Virus record (IMG/VR): IMGVR_UViG_3300009093_000036
Location: 124,001 to 188,000 of that record
Strand: one strand, 5' to 3'
DNA length: 64,000 bases
Source: a virus
Of the stretch, positions 34,490-64,000 are shown one piece after another. A model generated the notes under the pieces. The model was given only the letters and a program-made list of their open reading frames with translations. It was not told the origin of the DNA and did not search any database. Both the position numbers and the translations under genes were made by a program. How positions within the stretch are numbered: the stretch's first letter is position 1; every line of letters begins with the position of its first letter.

Positions 34490-35602
34490 TCAGAAGGAGA
34501 CGACGCCCGGGAAGAACGTGCGATCCGCGGCGCGGTTGTTCGGCGCCCCGAGATCCTCCTCCACCTTCGGCGAGACCGAGGAGAGGATCGAGTCCGTGTT
34601 CAGCGACGTCGCGTCACCGGAGTAGAGCTCCAGCTTGCGGACCGACGCCACGTTGACGATCGACATGCCGACGTCCTTCCACGCGACGAACTTGATCAGG
34701 TTGATCACCTTGTCGATGTAGAACTTGACGTTGTTCAGGATGTAGAAGCGACCCAGGAACTCCGGCGACGTGTACGCGTACACGTTGCCCGGACGGAGGA
34801 TGTCCGTCTTGATGGTCCGGATCAGCTTCTTGCCGAGCAGGGTGTTGAACTGCCAGCCCTGAACGGTGGTCTCGCTCTGCACCTTCGAGCCCTGGTCCTC
34901 GATCGTCCACTGGAGGACGTCGTCGAGATCCTTGCTCGTGATGAGGATGAGCTCGCACTCCAAGCGGTTGCCGTCGAGTAGCTTCATCAGGTTGACGATG
35001 TCCGGGCGCTGGATCGGACGAACGATCGCGTCGTTCGTCGAAGCCGCACGCGCGAGCTCGCCCTTGATGACCGAGAACTCCACCGGCGGCGTGCCGCTCT
35101 GGAGACCCGTCGCGTTGAGCGCCGTCGTCGAGCCGTTGGCCTCGGTCTGGAGCGCCTGCACCGCGGCCTCGGAGTAGATCAGGAACTGACGGTCCTGGAT
35201 CTCGCCGATGTCGCGGATCGAGTTCTGCTCGACCACCTTCCCGAGCGGGTACGGGTAAGCCAGGAACTCCTGCTCCGGCTTCTGGTACATCTCGCTCATG
35301 ATGGTGATGAACGGCACCTCGACGCGCTCGCCGCGGAGCAGCCGAGCCGAGGGCTCGCCACGGAAGGTGACCACCATGGCGCGCGAACGCGGCTCCAGGT
35401 GCTCGATCTTCACGAGCGAGTCGTGGTTGACCGAGATCTGGCAGTCGCTGCGCGTGACGGTCTGGGGCGGGAGGACCCGCTCCAGGAACGACGCCTCGCG
35501 CAGGCGATCTCGGATGTAGCCCCCGACCTCCGCCGCGAGCTTCGTCTTCGCGTCGGGGTTCGAGAGGTGCTGAATGGTCAGCTCCTTTGCATCGTGCAGC
35601 AT
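34490..35602 (-). CDS. probable major capsid protein
   Basis: 370 residues. The segment YIRDRLREASFLERVLPPQT, SVNHDSLVKIEHLEPRSRAM, and later PSARLLRGERVEVPFITIMS has the feel of HK97-fold capsid proteins, with an N-terminal arm, E-loop and long helix. The C-terminal half is beta-rich (LGRFYILNNVKFYIDKVI). Its neighbours are decoration-like protein, scaffold-like protein and protease, the usual capsid gene group. It lies at the right distance from the hairpin attenuator. No catalytic motif is expected or found. I rate this as the best capsid candidate in the window. Confidence 0.7.
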   Translation of the reverse strand: MLHDAKELTIQHLSNPDAKTKLAAEVGGYIRDRLREASFLERVLPPQTVTRSDCQISVNHDSLVKIEHLEPRSRAMVVTFRGEPSARLLRGERVEVPFITIMSEMYQKPEQEFLAYPYPLGKVVEQNSIRDIGEIQDRQFLIYSEAAVQALQTEANGSTTALNATGLQSGTPPVEFSVIKGELARAASTNDAIVRPIQRPDIVNLMKLLDGNRLECELILITSKDLDDVLQWTIEDQGSKVQSETTVQGWQFNTLLGKKLIRTIKTDILRPGNVYAYTSPEFLGRFYILNNVKFYIDKVINLIKFVAWKDVGMSIVNVASVRKLELYSGDATSLNTDSILSSVSPKVEEDLGAPNNRAADRTFFPGVVSF

Positions 35603-35657
35603 GATGTTCTCCTATCTCCTTTTCTGTCTGTCCGTCCGTCCCGACTTGCCGTCCGGA

Positions 35658-36134
35658 TCAGACCGCCGTCTGAAGGAAGCGGAGACGACCACCGTTGGTG
35701 ATCGCCAGCCGCGTCACGTAGCCGATGATGAGGTTGGAGCCCGTGCGGAGGATGAGCCCCGAACGCGTCTGCCCACCGACCGTGCACGCGCCCGTCATGA
35801 GCGGGCTGTGGAGGACGAGCGACGTCGTGTCGTACACGATCGTGTCCGCCTCGTACGTGCCGCCCTTGAGGATGGCCGCCTTGCCGGTCGCCTGCATCCC
35901 GAGGTCACCGCGCCACTCCAGGAAGGCGTAGGCGGGGACGAGCGGGCCCTGGTCCGTCGCGCGGACGAGCTTGTACGTGCTGTCCTCCGTGACGAACTCA
36001 CCGTCCATCAGCGGGACCTTGCCCGAGATGTTGGGGTTGAGAAGGTCCTTGTCCGCGACCTCCATCGCCGGGCGCATCAGGCGATCCCAGGACGTCGGGA
36101 ACACCACCTCGAACTTCCGATCGTTCGTGCTCAT
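35658..36134 (-). CDS. probable capsid decoration protein
   Basis: 158 residues starting MSTNDRKFEVVFPT, where AGGAGAG is six bases upstream of the second ATG. It is beta-rich, with GTYEADTIVYDTTSLVLHSP, then RSGLILRTGSNLIIGYVTRLA. This pattern is shared by phage head-stabilising and decoration proteins. It is encoded directly upstream of the capsid gene. It has no KTAS motif or coiled coil. Confidence 0.6.
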   Translation of the reverse strand: MSTNDRKFEVVFPTSWDRLMRPAMEVADKDLLNPNISGKVPLMDGEFVTEDSTYKLVRATDQGPLVPAYAFLEWRGDLGMQATGKAAILKGGTYEADTIVYDTTSLVLHSPLMTGACTVGGQTRSGLILRTGSNLIIGYVTRLAITNGGRLRFLQTAV

Positions 36135-42769: not shown

Positions 42770-44719
42770 ATGACGAAGACGACCGCCAGCAAGAACAAGT
42801 ACGACGCCTCCAGCATCCGCCAGCTCAAGGGGCTGGAAGCTGTCCGGGAGCGTCCCGGCATGTACCTCGGTGACCCTACGAGCGGTGATGCCCTCCACCA
42901 CTGCGTGTGGGAGGCAGTCGACAACGCCGTCGATGAGCACCTGGGTGGTCATGCCTCGAACATCGCCGTCTCCCTGATGCCCGACGGCTGGGTCAGCGTG
43001 GAGGACGATGGCCGTGGCATCCCCGTGGGGATCCATCCCGAGGAGGGGATCTCCGCCCTCCAGATGGTGATGACCTCCCTGCACGCCGGCGGGAAGTTCG
43101 ACCACAACAGCTACGACCAGAGCGCCGGCCTCCACGGCGTCGGCATCTCCGCGGTGAACGCTGTGAGCTCGGAGATGCAGGTCTTCGTGAACCGCGACGG
43201 GCACAGCTACATGCAGAGCTACGCGCGCGGCGTCCCCACGAGCGGAGTCGAGACCGTGGGGAAGTCGAAGCTGACGGGAACGAAGGTAGCGTTCCAGCGC
43301 GACCTCGACATCTTCCACGGCGTCATCGACTACGACTACGACATCATCGACACCCGGCTCCAGGAGCTCGCGTTCCTGAACCCCGGGCTCGTCATCACGT
43401 TCTCCGACACCCGCGGTAAGAAGCCGAAGCAGGTGCGCTACCACTACCAGGGCGGCATCAAGGAGTATGTCGAGGACTTGGTCTCGAAGAAGAAGCCGCT
43501 GATCCCCGTCCTCCACCTCCAGTCGTTCACGAAGAAGGTGGGCGCCGAGGTTGCCCTGACATGGACGGATGTTGCGAGCGACGACATCCGCTGCTTCGCC
43601 AACAACACGAAGAACCGCGACGGAGGGACCCACCTCACCGGGTTCAAGGCCGGCATCACGAAGGTCGTCACCGACTACATCAAGACCCACGAGCTCGGGA
43701 AGTCGCTCGAAGACGGTGTCACCGGGGAGGACATCCGCACCGGGCTCGTCGCGGTCGTCAGCATCCGTATCCCCGACATCAGTTTCAGCTCGCAGACGAA
43801 GGACAAGCTCGTCACCGCCAGCGCCCGCAAGCTGGTCGAGGACCTCCTCACCGAGAAGCTCGAAGACTGGATGTCCGGCCACACCGATGCCGCCAAGCGC
43901 ATCGCCGACCGAGCCGTCCTGAACGCGAAGGCGCGAGAGGCAGCCCGCCGTGCTCGGGAGGGCGTCTACCGCAAGTCCGAGATGGACATGCTCTCGCTGC
44001 CGGGGAAGCTGGCCGACTGCCAGAACAAGAACCCGGCGGAGTGCGAGATCTACATCGTCGAGGGCGAGTCCGCCGGCGGGAGTGCGAAGGCGGGCAGAGA
44101 CCGGAAGTATCAGGCCATCCTGCCGTTGCGCGGCAAGGTCCTGAACGTGGAGCGTGCTTCGTTGGAGGCGGTGGCAGAGAACGCCGAGCTCGGCACCCTC
44201 ATCACGGCACTCGGCTGCGGGATGGAGGCGACCCGCAACTTCAACGTGAAGAACCTCCGCTACCACAAGATCGTCATCATGACCGACGCTGACGTCGATG
44301 GGTCGCACATCCGGACCCTCCTGCTGACGTTCTTCTATCGGTACACCCCCAGGCTCGTGTACGAGGGCTTCCTCTACATCGCGGTCCCGCCACTCTTCAA
44401 GTTGAAGAAGGGCTCGGTCGAGCGCTTCTTCACGGACGAGCAAGAGCTGCGGGCGTACTTCGTCTCGCAGGGGCTGTCCCCGCAGGAAGCTGGCGACCGC
44501 GGGTATCGGATCACCCGGTACAAGGGCCTCGGGGAGATGAACCCCGAGACGCTGTGGGCGACCACGATGAATCCGGAGGTCCGTGTGCTCAAGCAGGTGA
44601 CGGTCGAGGACGCCCTGGAGAGCGAGCGCATGTTCGACTTGCTCATGGGGGCCGACGTCGACAGCCGCCGCAGCTACATCGAGGCCAACGCCCTGGCTGT
44701 GCAGAACCTCGACATCTAG
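42770..44719 (+). CDS. gyrB: DNA gyrase/topoisomerase IV subunit B homologue
   Basis: 649 residues, full length. The N-terminal GHKL ATPase has GLEAVRERPGMYLGD, HHCVWEAVDNAVDE (E48, N52), VEDDGRGIPVG (D80) and QSAGLHGVGIS. The C-terminal Toprim domain has EGESAGGSAK (~430), LPLRGKVLNVE and TDADVDGSHIRTLLLTF (~505), and GYRITRYKGLGEMNP. With a GyrA partner it would introduce or relax supercoils using ATP. No gyrA is in this window. The enzyme could pair with host GyrA or with a phage GyrA encoded elsewhere. It looks intact; GyrB is a little more likely than ParE. Confidence 0.95.
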   Translation: MTKTTASKNKYDASSIRQLKGLEAVRERPGMYLGDPTSGDALHHCVWEAVDNAVDEHLGGHASNIAVSLMPDGWVSVEDDGRGIPVGIHPEEGISALQMVMTSLHAGGKFDHNSYDQSAGLHGVGISAVNAVSSEMQVFVNRDGHSYMQSYARGVPTSGVETVGKSKLTGTKVAFQRDLDIFHGVIDYDYDIIDTRLQELAFLNPGLVITFSDTRGKKPKQVRYHYQGGIKEYVEDLVSKKKPLIPVLHLQSFTKKVGAEVALTWTDVASDDIRCFANNTKNRDGGTHLTGFKAGITKVVTDYIKTHELGKSLEDGVTGEDIRTGLVAVVSIRIPDISFSSQTKDKLVTASARKLVEDLLTEKLEDWMSGHTDAAKRIADRAVLNAKAREAARRAREGVYRKSEMDMLSLPGKLADCQNKNPAECEIYIVEGESAGGSAKAGRDRKYQAILPLRGKVLNVERASLEAVAENAELGTLITALGCGMEATRNFNVKNLRYHKIVIMTDADVDGSHIRTLLLTFFYRYTPRLVYEGFLYIAVPPLFKLKKGSVERFFTDEQELRAYFVSQGLSPQEAGDRGYRITRYKGLGEMNPETLWATTMNPEVRVLKQVTVEDALESERMFDLLMGADVDSRRSYIEANALAVQNLDI

Positions 44720-45298: not shown

Positions 45299-47131
45299 CT
45301 ACGTGTTGTTGAAGCCGTCGCCCGGATCGCCGTACGAGACGGGGATGTCCCCGTCGTAGGCGTCATCGCTGACGAAGCCGGCGAGCCGCGACTCTTCCTC
45401 CTCCTTGAACGGAGCGATGATGTCGGGCCGCTTGTGCTCCAGCATCGAGGCGAGGAGGCAGTACAGCGAGGCGTGGAACGAATCGTCGGTCTTCCCCTTC
45501 GGCTTGTCGTACTTGATCATGCGGAGGTTCTCGGAGTCCTCGGCATGGATGTTCAAGATGTCCTCGCCGTACGGACGCTCGATGGACGACCACTTCGGAA
45601 GGCGCACCTTCCGGCGCTTCAGCGCAACGAACATGTCCGACATCAGCGGCGTACGGAACGCGATGGTTCGGTGCAGGGTGCGGACGTACTTCAGCTTCAT
45701 GTTCAGACGCGGGGCGTACTCGAACGGGAAGATGCGGTGCATGCCGAACCGAGAGAGCAGCCGCTTGTTCTGGTAGAAGCCGAAGCCGAAGTCGGTGCCG
45801 ACGTACTTCGGACGGAACTTCTGGATGAGAGCTTCGATCTCATCCATCTGAGCGAGCGGGTCGGTCAGCGGGCCCGTGAAGCGCATCATGAAGAAGATCT
45901 GGAACGCCGCATCATCACGGCAGTAGGCGCCCATGGTGAGGACGGTGAAGGCCCTCTCGCCGCTGCCCCAGTCGATGCCGAAGAACGTGGTGTTGTTCTG
46001 CGCGATCTTGTACGCGACCTCCAGGTTGTTCTCGATCTTCGGCTCGCAGGCCTGGATGAGCTCCAGCTTGGAGATCGGCTTCGAGGCGGAGTCGTACGAG
46101 ATCGCGAGGACCTCGTTCATGAACTGCGCCGTGGGGTAGCGCTCGCGGGCGGCGAGAATCTCCTTCCACTTCTTCGGAGACTTCCAGAACCAGGGCACCA
46201 TCAGACGGCAGACGCGGTAGCCCTCGAAGGTGATGCGCTCGTTGTCGAGCTTCTGCATCTCCACCCAGCGAGCGTACGGATGCTCGGGGTTGATGGGTTT
46301 GCCACAGCGATCACAGATGGGTCCTTCCTTGCCCAGGTTCTTCTCGCTGAGGATGTTCCAGTGCCACGTCGCCGGCATGTTCGGCAGGCCGTGGTGCTCG
46401 CACGGAATGCACCACTCGCTGGCGGTCGAGTTGTCCGCCCAGTAGTGGTGGATGTTGTTGTCCATGCTCTTGGGCGTGCCCGAGTACACGAACAAGGTGT
46501 CCTGGTGGTGGGACGTCGTCTCTTCGATGACGGGCATGGTCGTGGAGACCAAGTCCTGGATCTCGTCGAGGAAGAGGTCGTTCACGGACAGACCGCGGAT
46601 ACGATCGGCGGTGAGGAAGGCGTACCGGAGGTAGATCTTCGAGCCGTTCGCGAAGTGCTTCTCGAACAGGTTGTTCGTGAGAGCCTCGTGGGTCTGTGCC
46701 TTGATGAGCGGACTGATGTCGATGATCTCGTTCAGGCGGGTCTTCGAGAAGACGGCCGTCTGCATCGCAGAGGGAGAGACGAACAGCGACGTGTGCCCAG
46801 GCCGCATCCCGGCGCGGCCGAAGATGCGGTTGCCGATCGTCGTGCTCTTCTCGGTCTGACGAGACGTGAAGAGCAGCACCTTGCGGGCCGGCGTGTCGTA
46901 GATGCGCTTGAGGTACTTGCGCTCGTCGAACACGAGAGGGACTGCTGTGCCGGTGTCACCGTCCTTGATGCGGATGAAGGCGGTCACCCACTCGGAGGTC
47001 AGGAGCTGGATCCTTCCGGTCTGGGCTTGCTTCGCGGAGCTCAGCTTGTACTCCAGGTCGTTGACACGTACACCGTACTCCACGGCCATGTCGCGATCTT
47101 CATCTTCCCCGAAGCCAACCCTGACAGCCAT
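45299..47131 (-). CDS. terminase large subunit (TerL)
   Basis: 610 residues from MAVRVGFGED, chosen because AGGA stands about 11 bases upstream. The ATPase has a variant Walker A SRQTEKST (90-97) and Walker B LFLDEIQD (D189, E190), with SGTPKSM as coupling motif. A four-cysteine zinc knuckle (C241, C244, C273, C276) is inserted between ATPase and nuclease. The RNase H-type nuclease has FFGIDWGSG (D387), VGTDFGFG (D447) and KTDDSFHAS (D549/D550). TerL packages DNA into the head and cuts the concatemer. No small terminase was recognised nearby. Confidence 0.93.
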   Translation of the reverse strand: MAVRVGFGEDEDRDMAVEYGVRVNDLEYKLSSAKQAQTGRIQLLTSEWVTAFIRIKDGDTGTAVPLVFDERKYLKRIYDTPARKVLLFTSRQTEKSTTIGNRIFGRAGMRPGHTSLFVSPSAMQTAVFSKTRLNEIIDISPLIKAQTHEALTNNLFEKHFANGSKIYLRYAFLTADRIRGLSVNDLFLDEIQDLVSTTMPVIEETTSHHQDTLFVYSGTPKSMDNNIHHYWADNSTASEWCIPCEHHGLPNMPATWHWNILSEKNLGKEGPICDRCGKPINPEHPYARWVEMQKLDNERITFEGYRVCRLMVPWFWKSPKKWKEILAARERYPTAQFMNEVLAISYDSASKPISKLELIQACEPKIENNLEVAYKIAQNNTTFFGIDWGSGERAFTVLTMGAYCRDDAAFQIFFMMRFTGPLTDPLAQMDEIEALIQKFRPKYVGTDFGFGFYQNKRLLSRFGMHRIFPFEYAPRLNMKLKYVRTLHRTIAFRTPLMSDMFVALKRRKVRLPKWSSIERPYGEDILNIHAEDSENLRMIKYDKPKGKTDDSFHASLYCLLASMLEHKRPDIIAPFKEEEESRLAGFVSDDAYDGDIPVSYGDPGDGFNNT

Positions 47132-50732: not shown

Positions 50733-51833
50733 TCAGACGAGCTTGAACTTCTGAGCCAAGATCGAAGGAGGCGGAGGGCCCACACCCGCGGCGGTGCCAA
50801 GAGTGGTCAGGTACGTCATGAGCTGGTTGCCACAGACTCCAGGCTCGATCGCCGTAGCACCGCCAGCCAGGACGCTGCCATCGAGGATGACCTGGGCGCC
50901 CTTCACGCGGGCCTCGGAGCCACCCTCGACCTTCGCCTTGCCGTTGGCCTTCATGCTGAGGTCGCCATCGACCTGGACGTCGTAGTTGCCCTTCACGCGG
51001 AGGGAGTAGTTCGAGCCGACCATCTCGGTCTTCGTCCCGTCCATCTTCAAGAGCATGCTGTAGGTGGCGTTCGTGACCTCGCCCGTCTCCGTGTTGATGC
51101 CCTGAGCGGCAACCATCACCTCCCAGACCTGTGCATCACCGCCGTCGGGTCCACGCAGCGGGAAGTGACGGACACGGAACGAAGCCTTCGCGTCCTGCGC
51201 GTACTCGTTCATGTGGAAGACGTACGAGGACGGGGCATTGCCTCCCGCATCGTTCTCTTGGCGCTCGGTCGTCCAGCGGATGTTCCCGCCGAACGTGTCC
51301 ATCGTGTAGTTCTCGGCGAAGTCCCGCACGTAGTTGTTGATGGGGATGTAGATGCGTTGAGCGAGCTCGGTCGAGCCGAGCTGAAGGACACCACCACGCC
51401 GAAGCAAGATGAAGTTCTCGTCTCGCGTCGTCAGGAAGATGTCCCCGGGCTGCATGTCGAGACGACGTCCGCGGAACGAGACGTCGGTCGTGCTGCCACC
51501 TGCGGACGTGCTGTGGGTGGGGGTGCCATCGTCGCTCTCGACGGACGACGGGATGGCGATGAAGCCGAGGATGAACGGCGGGGTTGTGTCGTTGCCTCGG
51601 AAGATCTGACAGCGAGCTCCTACCTCGGGGAGAAAGGAGATCCCCTCCCCGTTGTCGTTGTGGAAGTACGGCAGCGCGCACTGAAGGTCCTGGAAGGGCT
51701 TCTGCGTGTGACGGGTGACGACGTCCACGGTGAAGTTCGCCTTGTTGACGTTCGTCACCATCGCTTCCTCGATGACGGCGGGGAAGAACTCGGACGTCGA
51801 GGGTCCGCTTGCGCTGTAGTGACCGTCGCCCAT
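50733..51833 (-). CDS. baseplate spike (membrane-puncturing) protein
   Basis: 366 residues. The N-terminal region has an OB-fold-like part (FTVDVVTRHTQKPFQDLQCAL, ISFLPEVGARCQIFRGND), as in gpV and gp5 hub/spike proteins. The C-terminal part is a short-period beta repeat (LRVKGNYDVQVDGDLSMKA, KAKVEGGSEARVKGAQVI), the trimeric beta-helix of a spike. It would sit at the tip of the tube and pierce the host envelope. Its start overlaps the RNA polymerase stop (TGATG), so the two are translationally coupled. Confidence 0.8.
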   Translation of the reverse strand: MGDGHYSASGPSTSEFFPAVIEEAMVTNVNKANFTVDVVTRHTQKPFQDLQCALPYFHNDNGEGISFLPEVGARCQIFRGNDTTPPFILGFIAIPSSVESDDGTPTHSTSAGGSTTDVSFRGRRLDMQPGDIFLTTRDENFILLRRGGVLQLGSTELAQRIYIPINNYVRDFAENYTMDTFGGNIRWTTERQENDAGGNAPSSYVFHMNEYAQDAKASFRVRHFPLRGPDGGDAQVWEVMVAAQGINTETGEVTNATYSMLLKMDGTKTEMVGSNYSLRVKGNYDVQVDGDLSMKANGKAKVEGGSEARVKGAQVILDGSVLAGGATAIEPGVCGNQLMTYLTTLGTAAGVGPPPPSILAQKFKLV

Positions 51834-54800
51834 CAGTACCTGGAGACCCCACGACCGTTGCCGAACTCGGCCCCGTGCGCAAGCCCAGGGATCGGATGCA
51901 GGCCGTGGATGTCCGACTTCTCGTTGAGCGCCGCCGCCGTCATGATGTGCTCCTGGAGGCGGTTCGACTGAAGTCGCGCCATCCAGTCGTGCTGCTTCAG
52001 CGCCGTCGTGGTCTCCGTGGCCTTCAGCACCGGACGCACCTCGATCGGCTTTTGGTTCTTGAGCACGGTGCGGTTGATCTCCTCGACCACCGGGAACTGC
52101 ATGTGGTCCCCGCGGAGGATGGTCGGGTGGTCACCGGGGTCCGAGACCTCGACGGTGCTCGTTGCGTTGCGCACCGTGAGCTCGACGTGACGACGAAGGA
52201 CATCCTCCTTCTCGTAGATCTTGCCGATGCGATCGACCATGTGGTCCTGCGTCGCTTCGAGGCCACGGGTCTTGAGCAGCATGTTGAGGTTCGGGTCTCC
52301 CTCGGAGAGCTGCTCGCCACGCTGGAACTTGTAGCCGGCCTTCACGTGCGGAAGGAGGGGCTGACGAGAGTAGAGATCGACCTTGCTCTCTGCGAAGCGG
52401 ACCTTGTGACCGCCCTGCGGCTGAGCCTCGACACGAGTGACGACGCCTGCACGCGGAGCGATGATGGCGTCGACCGGCGACCGCTTCGCGACACCGAACA
52501 CGCGCTCGACGGTGCTGAACTCGTCGACGGCTCCACGCTGCGTCGGGACGATGCCCTGGTTGTGGGTCTGCTTCAGCATGAGCTGTGCAGCGCGCTCTCC
52601 GATCGCCTGCGCCGCCATGATGCCGACGTTGTCGCCCAAGTCGTAGTTGACGCCGGACGGGTGCTTGCCCATGCAGGTCGAGCACACCCCGTGCGGCATG
52701 CGGCACTTCAGGGGCGAGCGAACGAACAGGTTCGTGACGCCAGCCTTCGAGAAGGTCTGCTGGAGGCCGGGGGTGATGACGGTGCCCGCAGGGATCGTCT
52801 TGCCTCCGGCGGTGACGGGAGAGGCGAGATAGCGGTCGACGAGGTCGCGGTCGTTGACGCCCAGGCTGATGCCCGAGTGCGTCCCGCAATCCATCGCCGT
52901 GATGGGCGAGTCGATGTTGGACTGAATGAGCTCCTTCGTGAGGACGCCCGGGTCTCGAACTGCGTCGACCTTCTGGATCGTGCCCTTTCGTGCTCCAGCC
53001 GCCTGGAGGAAGTAGCCGCCAACGTCGACACCCTCGGAGAACGACCGCGTGATCGGAACCTTCGAGGCGTGGCCGAGGTGGTTCTCGACGAGCATCGGGG
53101 CGATCACGAGGCCCTGGAACTGCTCCTTCTTCGCCTTGATGCCCGAGGACCGCATGTCCGAGATGTTCGTCGGATGCTTCTTGAAGTGCTCGTCGTAGGT
53201 CTCGTGCAGCTTCTTGGTGGCGTCCACCCAGATCTGCGTGCGCTCTGCGTCGGGCTTCCCTTCGGCACGGCTCTTCGCCGCCGCGATGATCTTCGCCCGC
53301 TCCACGCGCATCGGCTCCAGGTCCGAAAGACGAACGGTGTGTCCGCTCTCGAAAGCCATCTTGAAGCCGAGCTGGGTGAGGTTGCGGGTGAACGGCTCGA
53401 AGATCGCCGGGGCATGCTGTGCGGTCTGCCGAAGCATGTCCGTGACGAACTTCTTCGAGATGGGGGTATCGATGCCGGTGAGGACCTGCGCCTTGTACTG
53501 GTCGGGCACGATGTGAGAGATGCGGACACGGCCGAGCGTCGTGCGGTCCTTACCGACCGTGATGACGTCGTCGAGGTTGATCTTGTTGTTGACGAACGCC
53601 GCCTCCGCTTCCTTCGCGGAAGCGAACGTCTGGTTGGTCTCCCGCTTCTTCAACGACATGCGGTAGAGAGCGAGCATCGATTCGTTCGTCGGCGTGAACA
53701 GGACTTCACCCGTGCTCGCCGAGATGGAACGGTTCGACGGCAAGAGCTTGTAGGCCTCCTGCACCGCGGCATGCTGGATGGGGAGCATGAGCGCGACCGT
53801 GTCGCCGTCGATGTCTCCGCCGAGCGGGGGAAGAACGAGAGGACTCACCTTGATGGCTCGCGAGTCCGTGAGCTTCACCTTCTGACCGATGATGCCGTAC
53901 TGATGGAGCACGGGGTCGCGCTTCATCAGGACCGGGCGCTCCTCGATCTCACGCCGCAGAGCAGCCTCGGCGACAGCGGAGCGCTTCGAGATCTCCTGCT
54001 GTGCCTGGATCGGGTTGTAGCCCATCTGCGTGAGGCGATGACCCACCATCGGTCGGAAGAGCTCGAACGCGATCTTCTTCGGTACGCCGATCTCGTCGGC
54101 CCCGAGCCCGGGGTCTGCGACGATCGTGGCTCGCGCCGTGTAGTCCTGCTTCTTGCCGATGACCTTGTCCTGGAAGAAGCCGTCCTTCGGCGAGTCGCCG
54201 GCGATCGTGTGCAGGATGCCGGGGAGGAAGCGGCCTCGCACCGGGTTGCCTTGGAAGTCGATGTCGAGAGCCTTCTTCCCCTTCGGGGTCGTACCGAAGA
54301 GGTTCTGGATCTCCTGGTAGAGATCTCCCTGTGCCTGAAGAAGACGGCGATCGGGGATGCCCTCCTTCTTCGAGGTCTCCAGGGACGAGTTCACCATGCC
54401 GAGCCGGCGATAGAGCTGATTCAGCGGATCGATGCGGTCCGTACCTTCCGCGCTCTCCTGGAAGGGGCGGTAGATCGGAGGCAGCACCGGCAGCAGCTTC
54501 ATCGTGTACGCCTCGGAGGGCGTCTTGCCGTGCTCCTTCAGCGCACGCAGCGACTTGTACGCGAAGACCGCGTTGTTGAGCTCGCTGCTCTTCACCTTCG
54601 GGTCGTCGATCATCGACTTGTAGTGCTTCAGCCTCTGCTCGACATTGATCTTGGCGAGTCCGTCACGGATCGCCTCGCCTCCCGTCTTGCCGTTCAGCTT
54701 CATCTCACCCGAGACGATCTTCTGGATGTCCTGCTTCTGGATGCCCAGCAGCGACGAGATCGAGTCCGCGAAGATCGGATTCGGCATCGGGGCCGCGAGC

Positions 54801-57800
54801 TCGATGTAGCCCCAGCGCTGCTTGTCCGGACCGAAGATGTGCGGATCGAAGATGCCTCCGCTCTTGGGCTTCATGTTCTTGGCGGCAACCGTCAGCGAAG
54901 GCTCGGTGACCTTGCCGCTCTTGCCACCCGCCCACTTCAGCGTCTCCTCGTCCGTCTGCGGGACGAGGCTGAGCATGCTGCCCTTTTTCTCCAGGTTCAG
55001 GCCCGTGGCCTGGAGAAGAGCACCGAACTTGTTGTAGACGTACGGAACCTGCGGAGGAGGGATCATCCGACCGTTCGCAAGAGCTGCCCACAGTGCCTCA
55101 GCCTGCGGCCGATCGGACTTGAGGGTCTGCATCTCGCCCAGGTTCTGACGGAGACCAGCAGCGAGTGCGCCGTACACACCGAGAGAGCCCAGGCTCTGAG
55201 CGCCACTCTCACCACCGCCACGAGGGACGAGGTTCGTGTCGTACTGGATGTGCGGCATCCCGGTTGACTTGATGTAGGCGCCGCCGTGACGAACGTGCGT
55301 CTTCTTGTCGATCTGGTGTTCGAGCTGGAACACGTAGTGCGGGCCGACGGTCACCTCGCCGAGCTTGCGATCGGTCTTGGGGTCGACGAGGAGCTCAGTC
55401 TCCTTGAGGCCGTGGTGCTTCAGCTCGTCCTGGATCTTCTTCAGGTAGTCGGTCTGCCCGTCGAAGTTCTTGACGATGTAGGGCTGTCCCGTCTTCTCCG
55501 CGATCTTGCCCGCTGCCGTCTCCAGGATCTGCCCCGGGTTCATGCGGCCCGGCACGGAGACCGGGTTGATCAGCATCTCGACGTGCTCGTGCTTGCCGTT
55601 CTTCGTGTAGTACGGCATCTCGTTGTCGGGCAGGATCTGCGTGACGATGCCCTTCGCGCTGTGGCGGGTCGAGACCTTCGAGCCAACGATCATCGGCTCC
55701 TTCGTCTTGACGTGAACGGTGATGTTCTTGCCCGAGCGAACGACACGCACGACCTCGCCGGTGTGCTCGTGGTCCCACGTCAGAGCCGCGTTCGTGTAGT
55801 CGAGGCGGCCCTTCTTGGTGAGCCGGTCGAGCATCTTCGCGTCGATCGTGTCGGGGTTCTTCTCTTCACGAAGAGCGAGAACGAGCGGGTCGCCGGGATG
55901 AACCGTGGCTCCCTCCTTCACAACACCATCATCACCGATGTGGTTGTACTGCGTGGGCTGGAAGGCCGTGCCCTTGTGCGCGACGAAGCGGTTCTTGTCG
56001 ATGACGTGGTCATCCGTCACGTAGAACGACGGCTTCAGGAGATGCTCGGTCCCCATCTTCTTGGCCGCGGACTCGGAGAGCGCGATGCCATCCTCGTGGT
56101 TCGCCCCGTTCGCCAAGTACGCGACGCGGACGTTCGTCCCCAGGGCGAGCGTCCCGTTCTTCGTGAAGGAGTGATCGGCAAGTACCTGACCTGTGTGAAC
56201 TCGGTCGCCCACCTTCACGAGGGGCTTCGAGTTCAACATCGTCTTCTTTTCGTTGAGCGGGTAGTGGTCGTAGATGTGAACGGAGTGTTCATGACCCGCC
56301 GGATCTCGCACCACGATCTCGTCCGACAGCACCTTCGTCACGAAGCCCGCCACCGGGGCCTTGTGGGAGAGGAACGTCTCACCAATCCGCTTCTCGAACG
56401 AAGCCCCAGGTGCCGCCTGCACCTGCACGAGAGGAGCTTCGCGCCCCGTCAGTGAGAGCGCCTGCGCCATGTGACGCGCCGACATCGTCGTGCGTCCTGC
56501 TGCGTCGTTGCCCATGAACGGGACGAGGTTAGTCTCGGTGGAGAACACCTGCGTCGGAGAGATGAGTGCGTACTGCGCTTCCTTCAGCGGACGCTCTTCG
56601 ATGTCGCCGTGCTGGTTCGAGACACGGACCTTCTCGTTGATGGCGCGCGGAACACCGCCATGCCACGTGATCTGGTCGGGCAGCACCACGATCGACTTCG
56701 CTGCTTCCGCGGGTGTGAGCTCCTCGACCTTCCCCGTCTTGAGGTTGTAGAGCTTCGTGTACGGCTTGCGATCACGGACCACGATGCCGGACGTGAGGTG
56801 GGTGGTCGTGCCCGGGGAGCCCTCGGGGGTGAAGACGGGGTCGACGAAGCCGAGCTGAGAGGGATCCACGCTCGTGTTCGAGAGCGTGACCTGATGTTCG
56901 GACTTGATGCCTCCCGGGCCCATGATCGTCGTCTGGCTACGGTCGGCCAGCATCGACACGGGGTTCGTCTGCTTCGGGGTCGAGGTCAGCCCCGTGATGC
57001 CGAAGACGTGGTTGATCGGCTTCTGGATGAGGTCCGGCATCACGATGTCGCGCAGCACCGACTGCGAGCCCGCAGTGAGCGCTTCCTGCGTCGACTTCTT
57101 GCCGAGGGACTTCAGGACACGACCGTGGATGTCGTTCTTCGAGGCATGCAGCCGCTCGATGAAGTGGTCCGCCGGCGTCCACAGCTCCTTGAACTCCAGG
57201 GAGTCGATGGGATCGGGCCGCGTACGCTCCGCGCTGACGTCGATGAGCTTGCCACTCGCTCGAAGGAGCGCCTCTCCCGAGACCTGATCGAAGCCCTTCC
57301 CCAGCGTCGTCTTCGTGACGGCCGGATCCATCTTCGTCTCGCTGAAGTACTTCACGATCGCAGCCGGCAGGTCGGTACCCGTCGGAACGTTCGCATCCTT
57401 CATCGCCGTGTAGAACGAGTTGAGGTCCTGCGAGTACCGGGACTTCTTCAAGTTGGCGTCGAAGTTCTTGTCGCCCCAGGCCTTCTTCATCTCGTCGTCG
57501 GTGATGCCCGTGGCCTTGAGGACCGAGTAGAGGGGGATCTTGCGGGCCCCCGTCTTCACGAAGAGGTAGCCGCTGCCAGGCTCCATCTGCACATCGAAGG
57601 GACGGCCCTTCGCGAGCTGGAACTGCGCCTCGAACTCTCCGGCCTTCTCGGTCGCTTTCACGTAGGCACCCGGACGGAGACGCCACTGGTTCGTGACCGA
57701 CTTCTCCTGGCCACCGTGGATGAAGGTGTAGTGGCGCGTCAGCTTCGGGATGTCGGCGATCTTCATCCGACGACCGACCAAGGTCTTGCCGGCGCGATCG

Positions 57801-58030
57801 ACCACCTCGACGTCAGCGACGACCGGCGCCGTGTACGACCGACCAGAGAGGCGGGCCTGCATCTGACCCTTGATGTCGTCGGTCCCGAGCGTGGAGTCCG
57901 ACACCTCCAAGTTCTTCACCCGAACCTCGATCCCCGTCTTCGGGTCCGAGACCGGGAACGTGGCCTGGATCTCCGCGAGGAACCTCGACTTCAGGTCCTC
58001 GTACTGACGGTTCGGGTCGGTGTTCAGCAC
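51833..58030 (-). CDS. single-chain multisubunit-type RNA polymerase (beta-beta' fusion)
   Basis: 2065 residues with both catalytic subunits in bacterial order. Beta, about 1-1015, has FIHGGQEKSVTNQWRLRPG; NVRVAYLANGANHEDGIALSE; VSTRHSAKGIVTQILPDNEMPYY; YVFQLEHQIDKKTHVRHGG; and a C-terminus GEMQTLKSDR...LLQATGLNLE. Beta-prime, from ~1020, has FDPHIFGPDKQRWGYIELA; PPIYRPF...LYRRLG; DYTARATIVADPG; RDPVLHQYGIIG; catalytic GGDIDGDT (~1405); trigger loop AGARKGTIQKVDAVRDPGVLT (~1677); and a zinc site from AMDCGTHSG and CRMPHGVCSTCMG. The N-terminal zinc ribbon of beta-prime is missing. It starts with GTG. No alpha, omega or sigma gene is seen. Coupling to the spike gene suggests a virion polymerase. 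Confidence 0.93.
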   Translation of the reverse strand: MLNTDPNRQYEDLKSRFLAEIQATFPVSDPKTGIEVRVKNLEVSDSTLGTDDIKGQMQARLSGRSYTAPVVADVEVVDRAGKTLVGRRMKIADIPKLTRHYTFIHGGQEKSVTNQWRLRPGAYVKATEKAGEFEAQFQLAKGRPFDVQMEPGSGYLFVKTGARKIPLYSVLKATGITDDEMKKAWGDKNFDANLKKSRYSQDLNSFYTAMKDANVPTGTDLPAAIVKYFSETKMDPAVTKTTLGKGFDQVSGEALLRASGKLIDVSAERTRPDPIDSLEFKELWTPADHFIERLHASKNDIHGRVLKSLGKKSTQEALTAGSQSVLRDIVMPDLIQKPINHVFGITGLTSTPKQTNPVSMLADRSQTTIMGPGGIKSEHQVTLSNTSVDPSQLGFVDPVFTPEGSPGTTTHLTSGIVVRDRKPYTKLYNLKTGKVEELTPAEAAKSIVVLPDQITWHGGVPRAINEKVRVSNQHGDIEERPLKEAQYALISPTQVFSTETNLVPFMGNDAAGRTTMSARHMAQALSLTGREAPLVQVQAAPGASFEKRIGETFLSHKAPVAGFVTKVLSDEIVVRDPAGHEHSVHIYDHYPLNEKKTMLNSKPLVKVGDRVHTGQVLADHSFTKNGTLALGTNVRVAYLANGANHEDGIALSESAAKKMGTEHLLKPSFYVTDDHVIDKNRFVAHKGTAFQPTQYNHIGDDGVVKEGATVHPGDPLVLALREEKNPDTIDAKMLDRLTKKGRLDYTNAALTWDHEHTGEVVRVVRSGKNITVHVKTKEPMIVGSKVSTRHSAKGIVTQILPDNEMPYYTKNGKHEHVEMLINPVSVPGRMNPGQILETAAGKIAEKTGQPYIVKNFDGQTDYLKKIQDELKHHGLKETELLVDPKTDRKLGEVTVGPHYVFQLEHQIDKKTHVRHGGAYIKSTGMPHIQYDTNLVPRGGGESGAQSLGSLGVYGALAAGLRQNLGEMQTLKSDRPQAEALWAALANGRMIPPPQVPYVYNKFGALLQATGLNLEKKGSMLSLVPQTDEETLKWAGGKSGKVTEPSLTVAAKNMKPKSGGIFDPHIFGPDKQRWGYIELAAPMPNPIFADSISSLLGIQKQDIQKIVSGEMKLNGKTGGEAIRDGLAKINVEQRLKHYKSMIDDPKVKSSELNNAVFAYKSLRALKEHGKTPSEAYTMKLLPVLPPIYRPFQESAEGTDRIDPLNQLYRRLGMVNSSLETSKKEGIPDRRLLQAQGDLYQEIQNLFGTTPKGKKALDIDFQGNPVRGRFLPGILHTIAGDSPKDGFFQDKVIGKKQDYTARATIVADPGLGADEIGVPKKIAFELFRPMVGHRLTQMGYNPIQAQQEISKRSAVAEAALRREIEERPVLMKRDPVLHQYGIIGQKVKLTDSRAIKVSPLVLPPLGGDIDGDTVALMLPIQHAAVQEAYKLLPSNRSISASTGEVLFTPTNESMLALYRMSLKKRETNQTFASAKEAEAAFVNNKINLDDVITVGKDRTTLGRVRISHIVPDQYKAQVLTGIDTPISKKFVTDMLRQTAQHAPAIFEPFTRNLTQLGFKMAFESGHTVRLSDLEPMRVERAKIIAAAKSRAEGKPDAERTQIWVDATKKLHETYDEHFKKHPTNISDMRSSGIKAKKEQFQGLVIAPMLVENHLGHASKVPITRSFSEGVDVGGYFLQAAGARKGTIQKVDAVRDPGVLTKELIQSNIDSPITAMDCGTHSGISLGVNDRDLVDRYLASPVTAGGKTIPAGTVITPGLQQTFSKAGVTNLFVRSPLKCRMPHGVCSTCMGKHPSGVNYDLGDNVGIMAAQAIGERAAQLMLKQTHNQGIVPTQRGAVDEFSTVERVFGVAKRSPVDAIIAPRAGVVTRVEAQPQGGHKVRFAESKVDLYSRQPLLPHVKAGYKFQRGEQLSEGDPNLNMLLKTRGLEATQDHMVDRIGKIYEKEDVLRRHVELTVRNATSTVEVSDPGDHPTILRGDHMQFPVVEEINRTVLKNQKPIEVRPVLKATETTTALKQHDWMARLQSNRLQEHIMTAAALNEKSDIHGLHPIPGLAHGAEFGNGRGVSRY

Positions 58031-58096
58031 CGGGGAAGTCTACGCGCTGCCCTCGTAGTGGGTCAACGAACCCCGCGGAAATAGCCTCTCCGCAGA

Positions 58097-58103
58097 CCTA
58101 TCA
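58097..58103 (+). promoter_or_regulatory. CTATCA promoter-like motif of the MoxR unit
   Basis: CCTATCA followed by ACATGAAGGAGAGAGCC and the start at 58121. It is divergent from the RNA polymerase gene, which has no such motif on its side. Confidence 0.55.
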
Positions 58104-58120
58104 ACATGAAGGAGAGAGCC

Positions 58121-62621: not shown

Positions 62622-62647
62622 GAGGGGCCGCAAGCCCCTCTTCTTTT
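62622..62647 (+). terminator. rho-independent terminator
   Basis: Stem GAGGGGC / GCCCCTC with a five-base loop, followed by TTCTTTTA. It ends the MoxR unit and touches the stop of the convergent portal gene. Confidence 0.85.
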
Positions 62648-64000
62648 ACCCGCCAGCTCCGCCGAGGGAGAGACGGCGGGGCGGCTTCTGGCTCGGCAGC
62701 GGTCGCATGTCCACGCCACCAGTGTCGGGGGATGCCGACTGACCGACGATGTGCTGCTTCACGAGCTCGGCGAGCTCGGGCTGCGTCTGAGCGAGGTGAT
62801 CGATCGACTGCGTCTGCATGTCGCGCGGCTGCGCCGAGATCTGATTCGCCAAGCCCGCGGCCACCTGATCGAGCGGAATGCCCGTCGGAGCGGCCGTCAG
62901 TCCCGAGCCCATCTCGTCGGAGAACGGGGTCGAAGGTGCGGCCCCCATCCCACCACCGGCAGCTCCAGCCGCTGCACCCGGGTTGTTGGGATCCATGGGC
63001 ATCGGCATCAGGCCCTTCTGCTGCAACTTCAACTGGGCCTCCGCCATGATCTCCTGCGCCTGCGCCTGGTAGCGCGCCTGCACGACCATCGCCTCGCCCT
63101 GGATCTCGGCCTGGATGAGCTGCTGCTTCTTCAGCGCCTCGGCACGGATCTGCGTCTCCTTCACCTGGAGGCTCGACTCGTCCTCGACGTTGAAGTCCAT
63201 CATCGCGAGCAGCGACGTGTCGCTGATCTTCGACTGCTGGTTCATCGACGCCGCGAGCGCCATGCGCTGAAGGTCGTCCGCCATCTTGAACGGCTTGAAG
63301 CGAGCAGTCGGAACGCTCCAGTTCAAGTAGTGGCCGGTGCGACCCATGAACCAGTGGATGAGCCGGTAGTGGTTCTGCACGTTCGACAAGAAGAAGTTCT
63401 CGACCATACGCATCGAGACCGACGTTCCTGCGTACGTCCCCTGACCGAAGACGAGGTCGGACGGGAAGCCCATGCCGATCGCGATGAGCTCCGCGATCAT
63501 GCGGATCTCCTGCATCAGCAGCAGAGCCTTGCCGTTCTCTCCGATGATCTGATGGCCGAGCGGGAACGGCAGGATGCCGTAGTAGCTGGGGTCGACGCGC
63601 TGACGAGCGAGCTCGCGCTGGATGTGCCCACGCCAGTCGGCGAGGTTGATCGTGCTGAACGGATCGGCGCCGGCGGTCGCCGGCTGCGGGTACAAGAAGA
63701 TCTGCGGGACCATGTGCGTGAGCAACACGGTCTCCTGGGACTTCTTCATCAACTGCATGTAGAAGGCGTCCTTCATGACCGGCATGAGGAGCGGAACACC
63801 CCAGCCCTGGTCCATGCTGGACAGCGCCGGACGGCGCATGTGGAACACCTCGCGCTTGTCGAAGACGAGGGAGCGCTTCTCCTTGACGGCCTGGAGGAAG
63901 AGCTGAGGAGTCGTGGCGATGATGTCCTTGCGACCCATCGCCACGAGGCTGCGGAACTTCGCAGAGAGGTCGAGGGAGTAGTCCATCCTCCCGGTCGCCT
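62646..64000 (-). CDS. portal protein (partial, start beyond right edge)
   Basis: C-terminal 451 or more residues; the frame is open to the edge. The ATG at 63986 is directly against GGGAGG and lies inside the fold, so it is not the start. FHMRRPALSSMDQGWGVPLLM, then SYYGILPFPLGHQIIGENGKALLLMQEIRM and GMGFPSDLVFGQGTYAGTSVSM are portal landmarks of large myoviruses. A Gln/Ala coiled coil and Pro/Gly-rich tail follow. The portal forms the dodecameric DNA gate with TerL during packaging. Confidence 0.85.
   Translation of the reverse strand, partial: ATGRMDYSLDLSAKFRSLVAMGRKDIIATTPQLFLQAVKEKRSLVFDKREVFHMRRPALSSMDQGWGVPLLMPVMKDAFYMQLMKKSQETVLLTHMVPQIFLYPQPATAGADPFSTINLADWRGHIQRELARQRVDPSYYGILPFPLGHQIIGENGKALLLMQEIRMIAELIAIGMGFPSDLVFGQGTYAGTSVSMRMVENFFLSNVQNHYRLIHWFMGRTGHYLNWSVPTARFKPFKMADDLQRMALAASMNQQSKISDTSLLAMMDFNVEDESSLQVKETQIRAEALKKQQLIQAEIQGEAMVVQARYQAQAQEIMAEAQLKLQQKGLMPMPMDPNNPGAAAGAAGGGMGAAPSTPFSDEMGSGLTAAPTGIPLDQVAAGLANQISAQPRDMQTQSIDHLAQTQPELAELVKQHIVGQSASPDTGGVDMRPLPSQKPPRRLSLGGAGG

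Follow-up and report, generated by a model that had tools for sequence, protein, structure and literature searches.

This locus raises the question of whether one phage polypeptide can contain the entire catalytic core of a bacterial-type RNA polymerase (RNAP), and if so, with which partner, at which promoters and at which stage of infection the enzyme works. Cellular RNA polymerase requires alpha for bringing beta and beta' together. To our knowledge, the virion-packaged phage RNAPs studied to date have no classical sigma. We analyzed a 64,000-nt window (positions 124,001 to 188,000) of the 195,355-base viral record IMGVR_UViG_3300009093_000036. The best explanation of the results as a whole, to which we give a probability of roughly 0.6, is a minimal cellular-type holoenzyme consisting of one core chain and a sigma factor, probably packaged in the virion.

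A single-chain RNA polymerase gene

An uninterrupted frame of 2065 codons, with a GTG start and a TGA stop, occupies window positions 51833..58030 on the minus strand; the plus strand over the same interval has no open frame, being closed by stops. An initial annotation of this DNA had the frame at the right place but left out the strand. Pfam domains followed one another along the chain as Rpb2_3, Rpb2_6 (E 8e-51), Rpb1_1, Rpb1_2 and Rpb1_5, that is, beta then beta', and PDB matches were to bacterial beta' (E ~1e-84) and bacterial beta (E ~1e-65). The initial annotation had read a series of beta motifs followed by beta' motifs in bacterial order, and had proposed an Rpb1/Rpb2 domain search as a check; that search, the PDB matches and alignment to RpoB and RpoC all bear out the reading.

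The same alignment to bacterial RpoB and RpoC placed the join at about residue 1014/1015, where E. coli beta 1339 passes to beta' ~15. The RpoB-like part (residues 1-1014, containing the two Rpb2 domains) spans 54989..58030 and the RpoC-like part (residues 1015-2065, containing the three Rpb1 domains) spans 51836..54988, both on the minus strand, in agreement with the compact chain and ~1015-residue beta part estimated earlier. About 1970 of the 2065 residues could be aligned to B. subtilis RpoB plus RpoC, at 25% identity. The conserved domains of beta and beta' are all present and in order, except for the first zinc domain and small pieces. Relative to E. coli, the absent segments are mainly lineage-specific inserts (beta 229-310, 937-1048 and 1126-1179; beta' 947-1133); two other missing segments are present in B. 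subtilis too, namely a piece of the clamp (146-176) and the first beta' zinc-binding domain (E. coli beta' 65-97). A predicted model of residues 870-2065, of low confidence (mean pLDDT 62, pTM 0.37) and used for fold matching only, gave RpoC chains as its best Foldseek matches (E 4e-42).

The same single chain recurred in 15 or more viral contigs at 53–96% identity and in two others at 36%. A search for closely similar sequences gave sixteen viral loci, none of whose matched frames is broken by a stop, and a profile scan added further family members, down to 36% identity. Where these independent viral contigs hold the 5' end of the gene, it is intact and starts with GTG. Comparison with a 96% identical relative yielded a dN/dS of 0.042, indicating strong purifying selection. 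The initial annotation had named a frameshift or stop separating beta from beta' as grounds for abandoning its interpretation, and the unbroken frames of the relatives, with the low dN/dS, tell against any such break. The frame is a complete beta–beta' fusion; chance and assembly error are excluded. A frameshift or assembly artefact, considered as a separate candidate, was ruled out by the intact relatives and the dN/dS.

Active site and other functional residues

The catalytic DxDGD motif, read as GGDIDGD (D1406, D1408 and D1410), lies at 53801..53815. The beta catalytic lysines K785 and K793, in the counterpart of the bacterial GDKxxxRHGNKG motif, are at 55652..55678, and the N-terminal helix of the trigger loop, with catalytic histidine H1823 (E. 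coli H936), is at 52550..52594. Claims of a trigger loop and a second zinc site both held: besides the histidine we located four cysteines, three of them (Cys1776, Cys1783 and Cys1786) at 52673..52705 and the fourth ligand being Cys1715. All these features are on the minus strand and were placed by family and bacterial alignments. The three Asp, two Lys, H1823 and the cysteines of the second zinc site show no variation across the family alignment.

One position in the motif departs from the bacterial pattern. Bacterial NADFDGD reads GGDIDGD here, with Gly in place of an Asn that in bacteria touches the NTP ribose, and this alteration could be taken as a mark of an enzymatically dead or purely structural protein. 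We consider such a protein very improbable, given the invariance of every one of the catalytic and zinc-site residues just listed, the retention of NAD by family members L004, L046 and L047, and the dN/dS value. On these grounds the fused chain is very likely an active DNA-dependent RNAP. In the region of the rifampicin pocket (56909..57004, minus strand), the drug-contacting residues differ from those of E. coli (Q513S, D516K, H526D, R529Q and S531T), and we therefore predict that the fused RNAP is rifampicin-insensitive.

Two further open frames stood out. The RNAP ORF of a related phage (L047, IMGVR_UViG_3300017971_000006) is 2476 aa long, and at its motif of beta catalytic lysines it has an in-frame insert of ~327 aa (L047:4380-5390); the insert has intein-like ends and LAGLIDADG-like motifs, and is likely an intein in the RNAP active site. 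A 2424-aa open frame at L157:3632-10903 (minus strand) has an archaeo-eukaryotic-type NADFDGDEMN motif and is unusually long for Rpb1.

Relatives and phylogeny

The nearest isolates are Salmonella phage Arash and Vibrio phage D69, whose RNAPs are 28-30% identical to the window protein. Arash (gp206 + gp216) and D69 resemble the present phage in having beta fused to N-terminal beta', a companion sigma and homologous virion proteins, but their C-terminal beta', from the trigger loop onward, is a separate gene, with the break near window-protein residue 1493-1524. Arash gp206 (L029:11956-16533) is annotated in the Arash record just as 'RNA polymerase subunit beta', yet is actually beta plus the N-terminal half of beta', DYDGD motif included; the sections available to us of the Arash report carry no remark on fusion (PMC10585845).

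The concatenated tree, made by a quick method and containing long branches, showed the single-chain family as one clade, sister to Arash plus D69, with the 12 sampled bacteria on the other side at full support. In a beta' tree whose root was set with giant-virus sequences of the archaeo-eukaryotic type, all sampled phage RNAPs, whether fused, split or two-gene, fell in one clade (100/99) beside the bacteria, whose own unity was only moderately supported (70/95). Arash and D69 fell in the same clade as the single-chain family (100/100). Judged by these trees, the phage lineage of the fused RNAP is old, branching deep beside bacteria. A tree of phage and cellular polymerases had been called for, and the deep phage clade is its outcome.

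Clear similarity to bacterial RpoB and RpoC, ~25% identity over ~1970 positions, would also suit a recently captured host rpoBC, or a prophage or host contig misread as a virus. Capture was the second finding that the initial annotation considered fatal to its reading. However, the sampled bacteria are grouped, fully supported, on one side of the tree, opposite the phages; terminase, portal, capsid and sheath genes share the record with the RNAP gene; and two conserved patterns run against 84,980 cellular genomes, a scan that distant relatives could escape, hit no relative of the family. The trees and the empty scan rule out recent capture for practical purposes, and we rate it, together with misread host or prophage DNA, as extremely improbable. 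A prophage in sequenced bacteria was rejected as a candidate on the same scan. Separately, several unannotated phage-collection records (H5, H6, H12-H14 and similar; Enterococcus, Listeria, Staphylococcus and fecal clones) appear to contain ordinary bacterial rpoB/rpoC, i.e. host DNA.

Relation to known RNA polymerases

Natural rpoB-rpoC fusions, with the beta-beta' order in one chain, are found in Helicobacter and Wolbachia. Likened here by description and standing outside our trees, these are normal bacterial polymerases whose partners include alpha, omega and sigma. The initial annotation had taken phiKZ and YonO as its reference systems. It was right that the enzyme is recognizably of cellular type although in a phage genome, as shown by the strong Pfam and PDB matches to bacterial beta and beta' and by the place in the tree, but the closest systems are instead the mReC enzymes and the partly fused RNAPs of Arash and D69.

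The mReC (multimeric-RNAP-encoding Caudovirales) have deep-branching phage beta/beta' enzymes, described by Weinheimer & Aylward in 2020 (PMC7481178). Like the present enzyme, theirs are alignable to cellular beta/beta', and a deep clade apart from bacteria is reported for them. They are described as beta and beta' subunits, whereas the present enzyme is one chain. The mReC were selected for NADxDGD, where the window protein has GGDIDGD (though NAD occurs in L004, L046 and L047), and their capsids match Pfam Gp23 (PMC7481178), whereas the capsid of the present phage does not: PF07068 had no match in its record or capsid protein, in a search whose control set held no positive. Sigma is not mentioned in the sections of the mReC paper available to us (PMC7481178). 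Our deep phage clade is distinct from cellular RNAPs (100/99) in a tree whose taxa do not include the published mReC sequences. Because the NADxDGD and Gp23 features fail and the published sequences were not compared, we do not file the family as mReC, although its relatives could be in the published mReC set. The present RNAP is related to these known deep-branching phage RNAPs, yet is a new fused variant.

Other phage systems are further removed. Cobetia phage Carin-5 and Yersinia GN1 have phage beta and beta' in the same phage clade of the beta' tree, but each has a gene of its own, with beta' preceding beta, and identity is ~20%; in Carin-5 a sigma gene adjoins them. The phiKZ and AR9 phages share with this one a cellular-type double-barrel RNAP, one of their two being virion-packaged; their cores consist of four or five polypeptides, without classical sigma and much more divergent, where here a single chain is accompanied by a sigma. 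YonO, crAss phi14:2 gp66 and P23-45 gp64/gp96 have both barrels in a single polypeptide, and P23-45 gp96 is a virion RNAP, but they belong to the other major two-barrel RNAP clade (PMC10770324). They are without most of the cellular beta/beta' domains alignable in the window protein, which has strong bacterial beta/beta' matches and is placed beside bacteria (in a tree built without YonO or crAss sequences).

In a literature search of incomplete coverage, we came upon no account of a phage RNAP that is both cellular-type and single-chain, nor any of a strict sigma pairing of such an enzyme or the two promoter classes given below. The single-chain reading of the initial annotation stands; the phage sigma, the virion link and the promoter classes, which hold most of the functional interest, were not seen there.

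A companion sigma factor

A sigma-70-like protein of 262 aa is encoded on the minus strand at record positions 34875-35663 (L020:14875-15663). All 20 of its 20 phmmer matches in PDB were sigma factors. Its family profile matched RpoD/SigB in PDB over sigma2-sigma4 (E 1.6e-6), and a model of modest quality (pLDDT 69, pTM 0.36) had sigma chains as its top Foldseek matches (E 9e-6). The protein scores below the Pfam cut-off and is a divergent sigma-70. Every record of 149 kb or more that carries this RNAP group has it (12/12); it was not found in the searched fragments shorter than 75 kb. With one Pfam model (PF01000), alpha was detected in none of the same 12 records, and omega (PF01192) was not found in the phage's own record. 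Rather than the bacterial core composition alpha2 beta beta' omega, we observed a fused chain alongside which neither alpha nor omega was detected. Recruitment of host alpha by the fused chain is possible.

The 262-aa sigma is a likely partner of the fused RNAP. A phage sigma can also serve the host enzyme, as T4 gp55 does; phages commonly use a sigma factor of their own to redirect host RNAP (PMC7824862), and the phiKZ and AR9 enzymes rely on non-sigma factors, so that a working single-chain core could use another promoter factor. We judge this improbable, because sigma and RNAP occur strictly together in all 12 records, both are present in Arash particles according to the available sections of the virion report (PMC10585845), and the beta' clamp coiled-coil region (54281..54427, minus strand), which binds sigma in bacteria, is kept.

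Two promoter classes

Six nucleotides ahead of the GTG start of the RNAP gene is a -10 box, TAGACT (58037..58042, minus strand), making this a leaderless promoter, and its -35 box, TTGACC, is at 58061..58066 (minus strand). Both are conserved in relatives: TTGACC-N18-TA(G/A)ACT-N5/6-GTG was present at 13/13 loci, with spacers just 40% identical. On the virion-gene strand, TANNNT boxes were concentrated 6-9 nt ahead of start codons (in 8 of 77 spaced genes), with few at other offsets. An actinobacterium is a candidate host, going by the leaderless TANNNT promoters and a GC content of 63%.

The other motif, class A, is CTATMAG followed by (A)AGATRA. It occurred 16 times in the genome versus 1.05 in shuffles (maximum 3 in 20 shuffles). 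Most copies were 7-63 nt before starts, and one of the genes so preceded is the immediate upstream neighbor of sigma. Divergent from the RNAP gene, positions 58098..58112 on the plus strand read CTATCAACATGAAGG, a class-A promoter-like motif; its reverse-strand core, CTGATAG, recurs at the same place, beside the RNAP promoter, in many relatives. Under the reading favored here, the CTATMAG class would most likely be the one read by the fused RNAP and its sigma.

Virion genes and probable packaging

The next gene of the operon (50733..51833, minus strand) shares one base with the RNAP stop and has a weak baseplate/tail match (PHROG phrog_9992, E 6e-5). Farther downstream, in a same-strand module, is the terminase large subunit (45299..47131, minus strand; phrog_675, E 1e-48; homologue of Arash gp1), and a portal gene homologous to Arash gp204 (62646..63999, minus strand; E 4e-41) runs off the window. 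Terminase, capsid, sheath and portal are all on the strand of the RNAP gene, and MCP, TerL, portal, sheath, helicase and sigma are homologous between Arash and the present phage. Genes of the genome were called by an ad hoc caller, and their starts are approximate. A 195,774-base relative (96%) is circularly permuted with respect to the present genome and has a similar sigma-to-RNAP distance (48.2 versus 48.8 kb), so the present genome is probably complete.

Virion RNAP and sigma of Arash were reported in 2023 (PMC10585845). In the available sections of that report, the RNAP protein gp206 tops the spectra of purified virions (3516 spectra, 128 unique peptides), with 1210 spectra for gp216, 1148 for the helicase gp217, and 467 spectra and 24 unique peptides for the orthologous sigma gp10; a second sigma, gp196, is not named there among virion proteins. 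The preparation also contained metabolic enzymes such as ribonucleotide reductase, as well as RNA ligases, and the authors allow for carry-over (PMC10585845), so for the present phage we infer packaging from the Arash orthologues.

Carry-over would leave room for an enzyme that works outside the virion, its gene transcribed after infection by host RNAP and the product, with the phage sigma, transcribing middle and late genes. The conserved TTGACC-N18-TAGACT promoter immediately before the RNAP start has the look of a host sigma-70 promoter, and the enzyme could therefore be made early and act outside the particle; ribonucleotide reductase and RNA ligases were likewise in the Arash preparations. 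Yet among the Arash proteins in the available sections it is the RNAP that has the highest spectral count, with its 128 unique peptides, and sigma is present too, and the RNAP gene lies among same-strand virion genes here and near virion genes in Arash. A non-virion enzyme is thus rather unlikely, though less so than the other alternatives, and we favor packaging of the fused RNAP in the virion as the somewhat better-than-even reading.

Proposed mechanism

We propose that a single chain would supply the whole bacterial-type catalytic core and pair with the 262-aa phage sigma, so that two proteins would make up a holoenzyme having neither alpha nor omega. The scaffolding role of the alpha dimer in assembly is probably taken over by the fusion of beta and beta' in cis. 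Core and sigma would be packed into particles late in infection and be injected along with the DNA; phage-specific promoters, most likely CTATMAG, could therefore be transcribed at once, early use of CTATMAG being a proposal. In its full version, this scheme describes a cellular-type holoenzyme that is complete and smaller than any other known, assembles by itself with no alpha or omega, travels in the virion and has its own CTATMAG promoter class; we put it forward tentatively, with slightly more doubt than confidence. Such an enzyme would be a free-standing transcription system outside cells, made of two genes and programmed by sigma.

If true, a one-chain core with a strictly co-occurring sigma-70 would show to what extent the bacterial holoenzyme can be pared down. 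Mechanistic work and synthetic biology would gain a tractable system of two proteins, and ideas on how the deep phage RNAP lineage arose would become testable. The two conserved promoter classes, one of them leaderless, lead to concrete predictions.

Other features of the genome

Within the head/tail module, an 842-aa protein (window:29761-32289, minus strand) has an N-terminal ferritin-like domain (Pfam E 4e-12). A 722-aa protein (window:15892-18060, minus strand) has an inorganic-pyrophosphatase-like domain, and also matches several large phage virion/antirestriction protein families. Divergent from the RNAP gene, an AAA ATPase adjoins a DUF2201 metallopeptidase/VWA protein (window:58811-61197, plus strand), a MoxR-VWA-like pair. 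A 143-aa ORF ending in TAG is in frame with the ATPase ORF 3 nt on (window:58376-59959, plus strand), a possible amber readthrough fusion. Thirty-one predicted genes of the genome terminate in TAG, and a CUA-anticodon tRNA (ARAGORN: tRNA-Pyl), possibly an amber suppressor, was found at L021:3675-3747 (record 43675-43747, plus strand). The phage also encodes a tmRNA (window:5510-5899, minus strand; Rfam RF00023, 154 bits), with the predicted tag ANDSSYAQPVLANAA.
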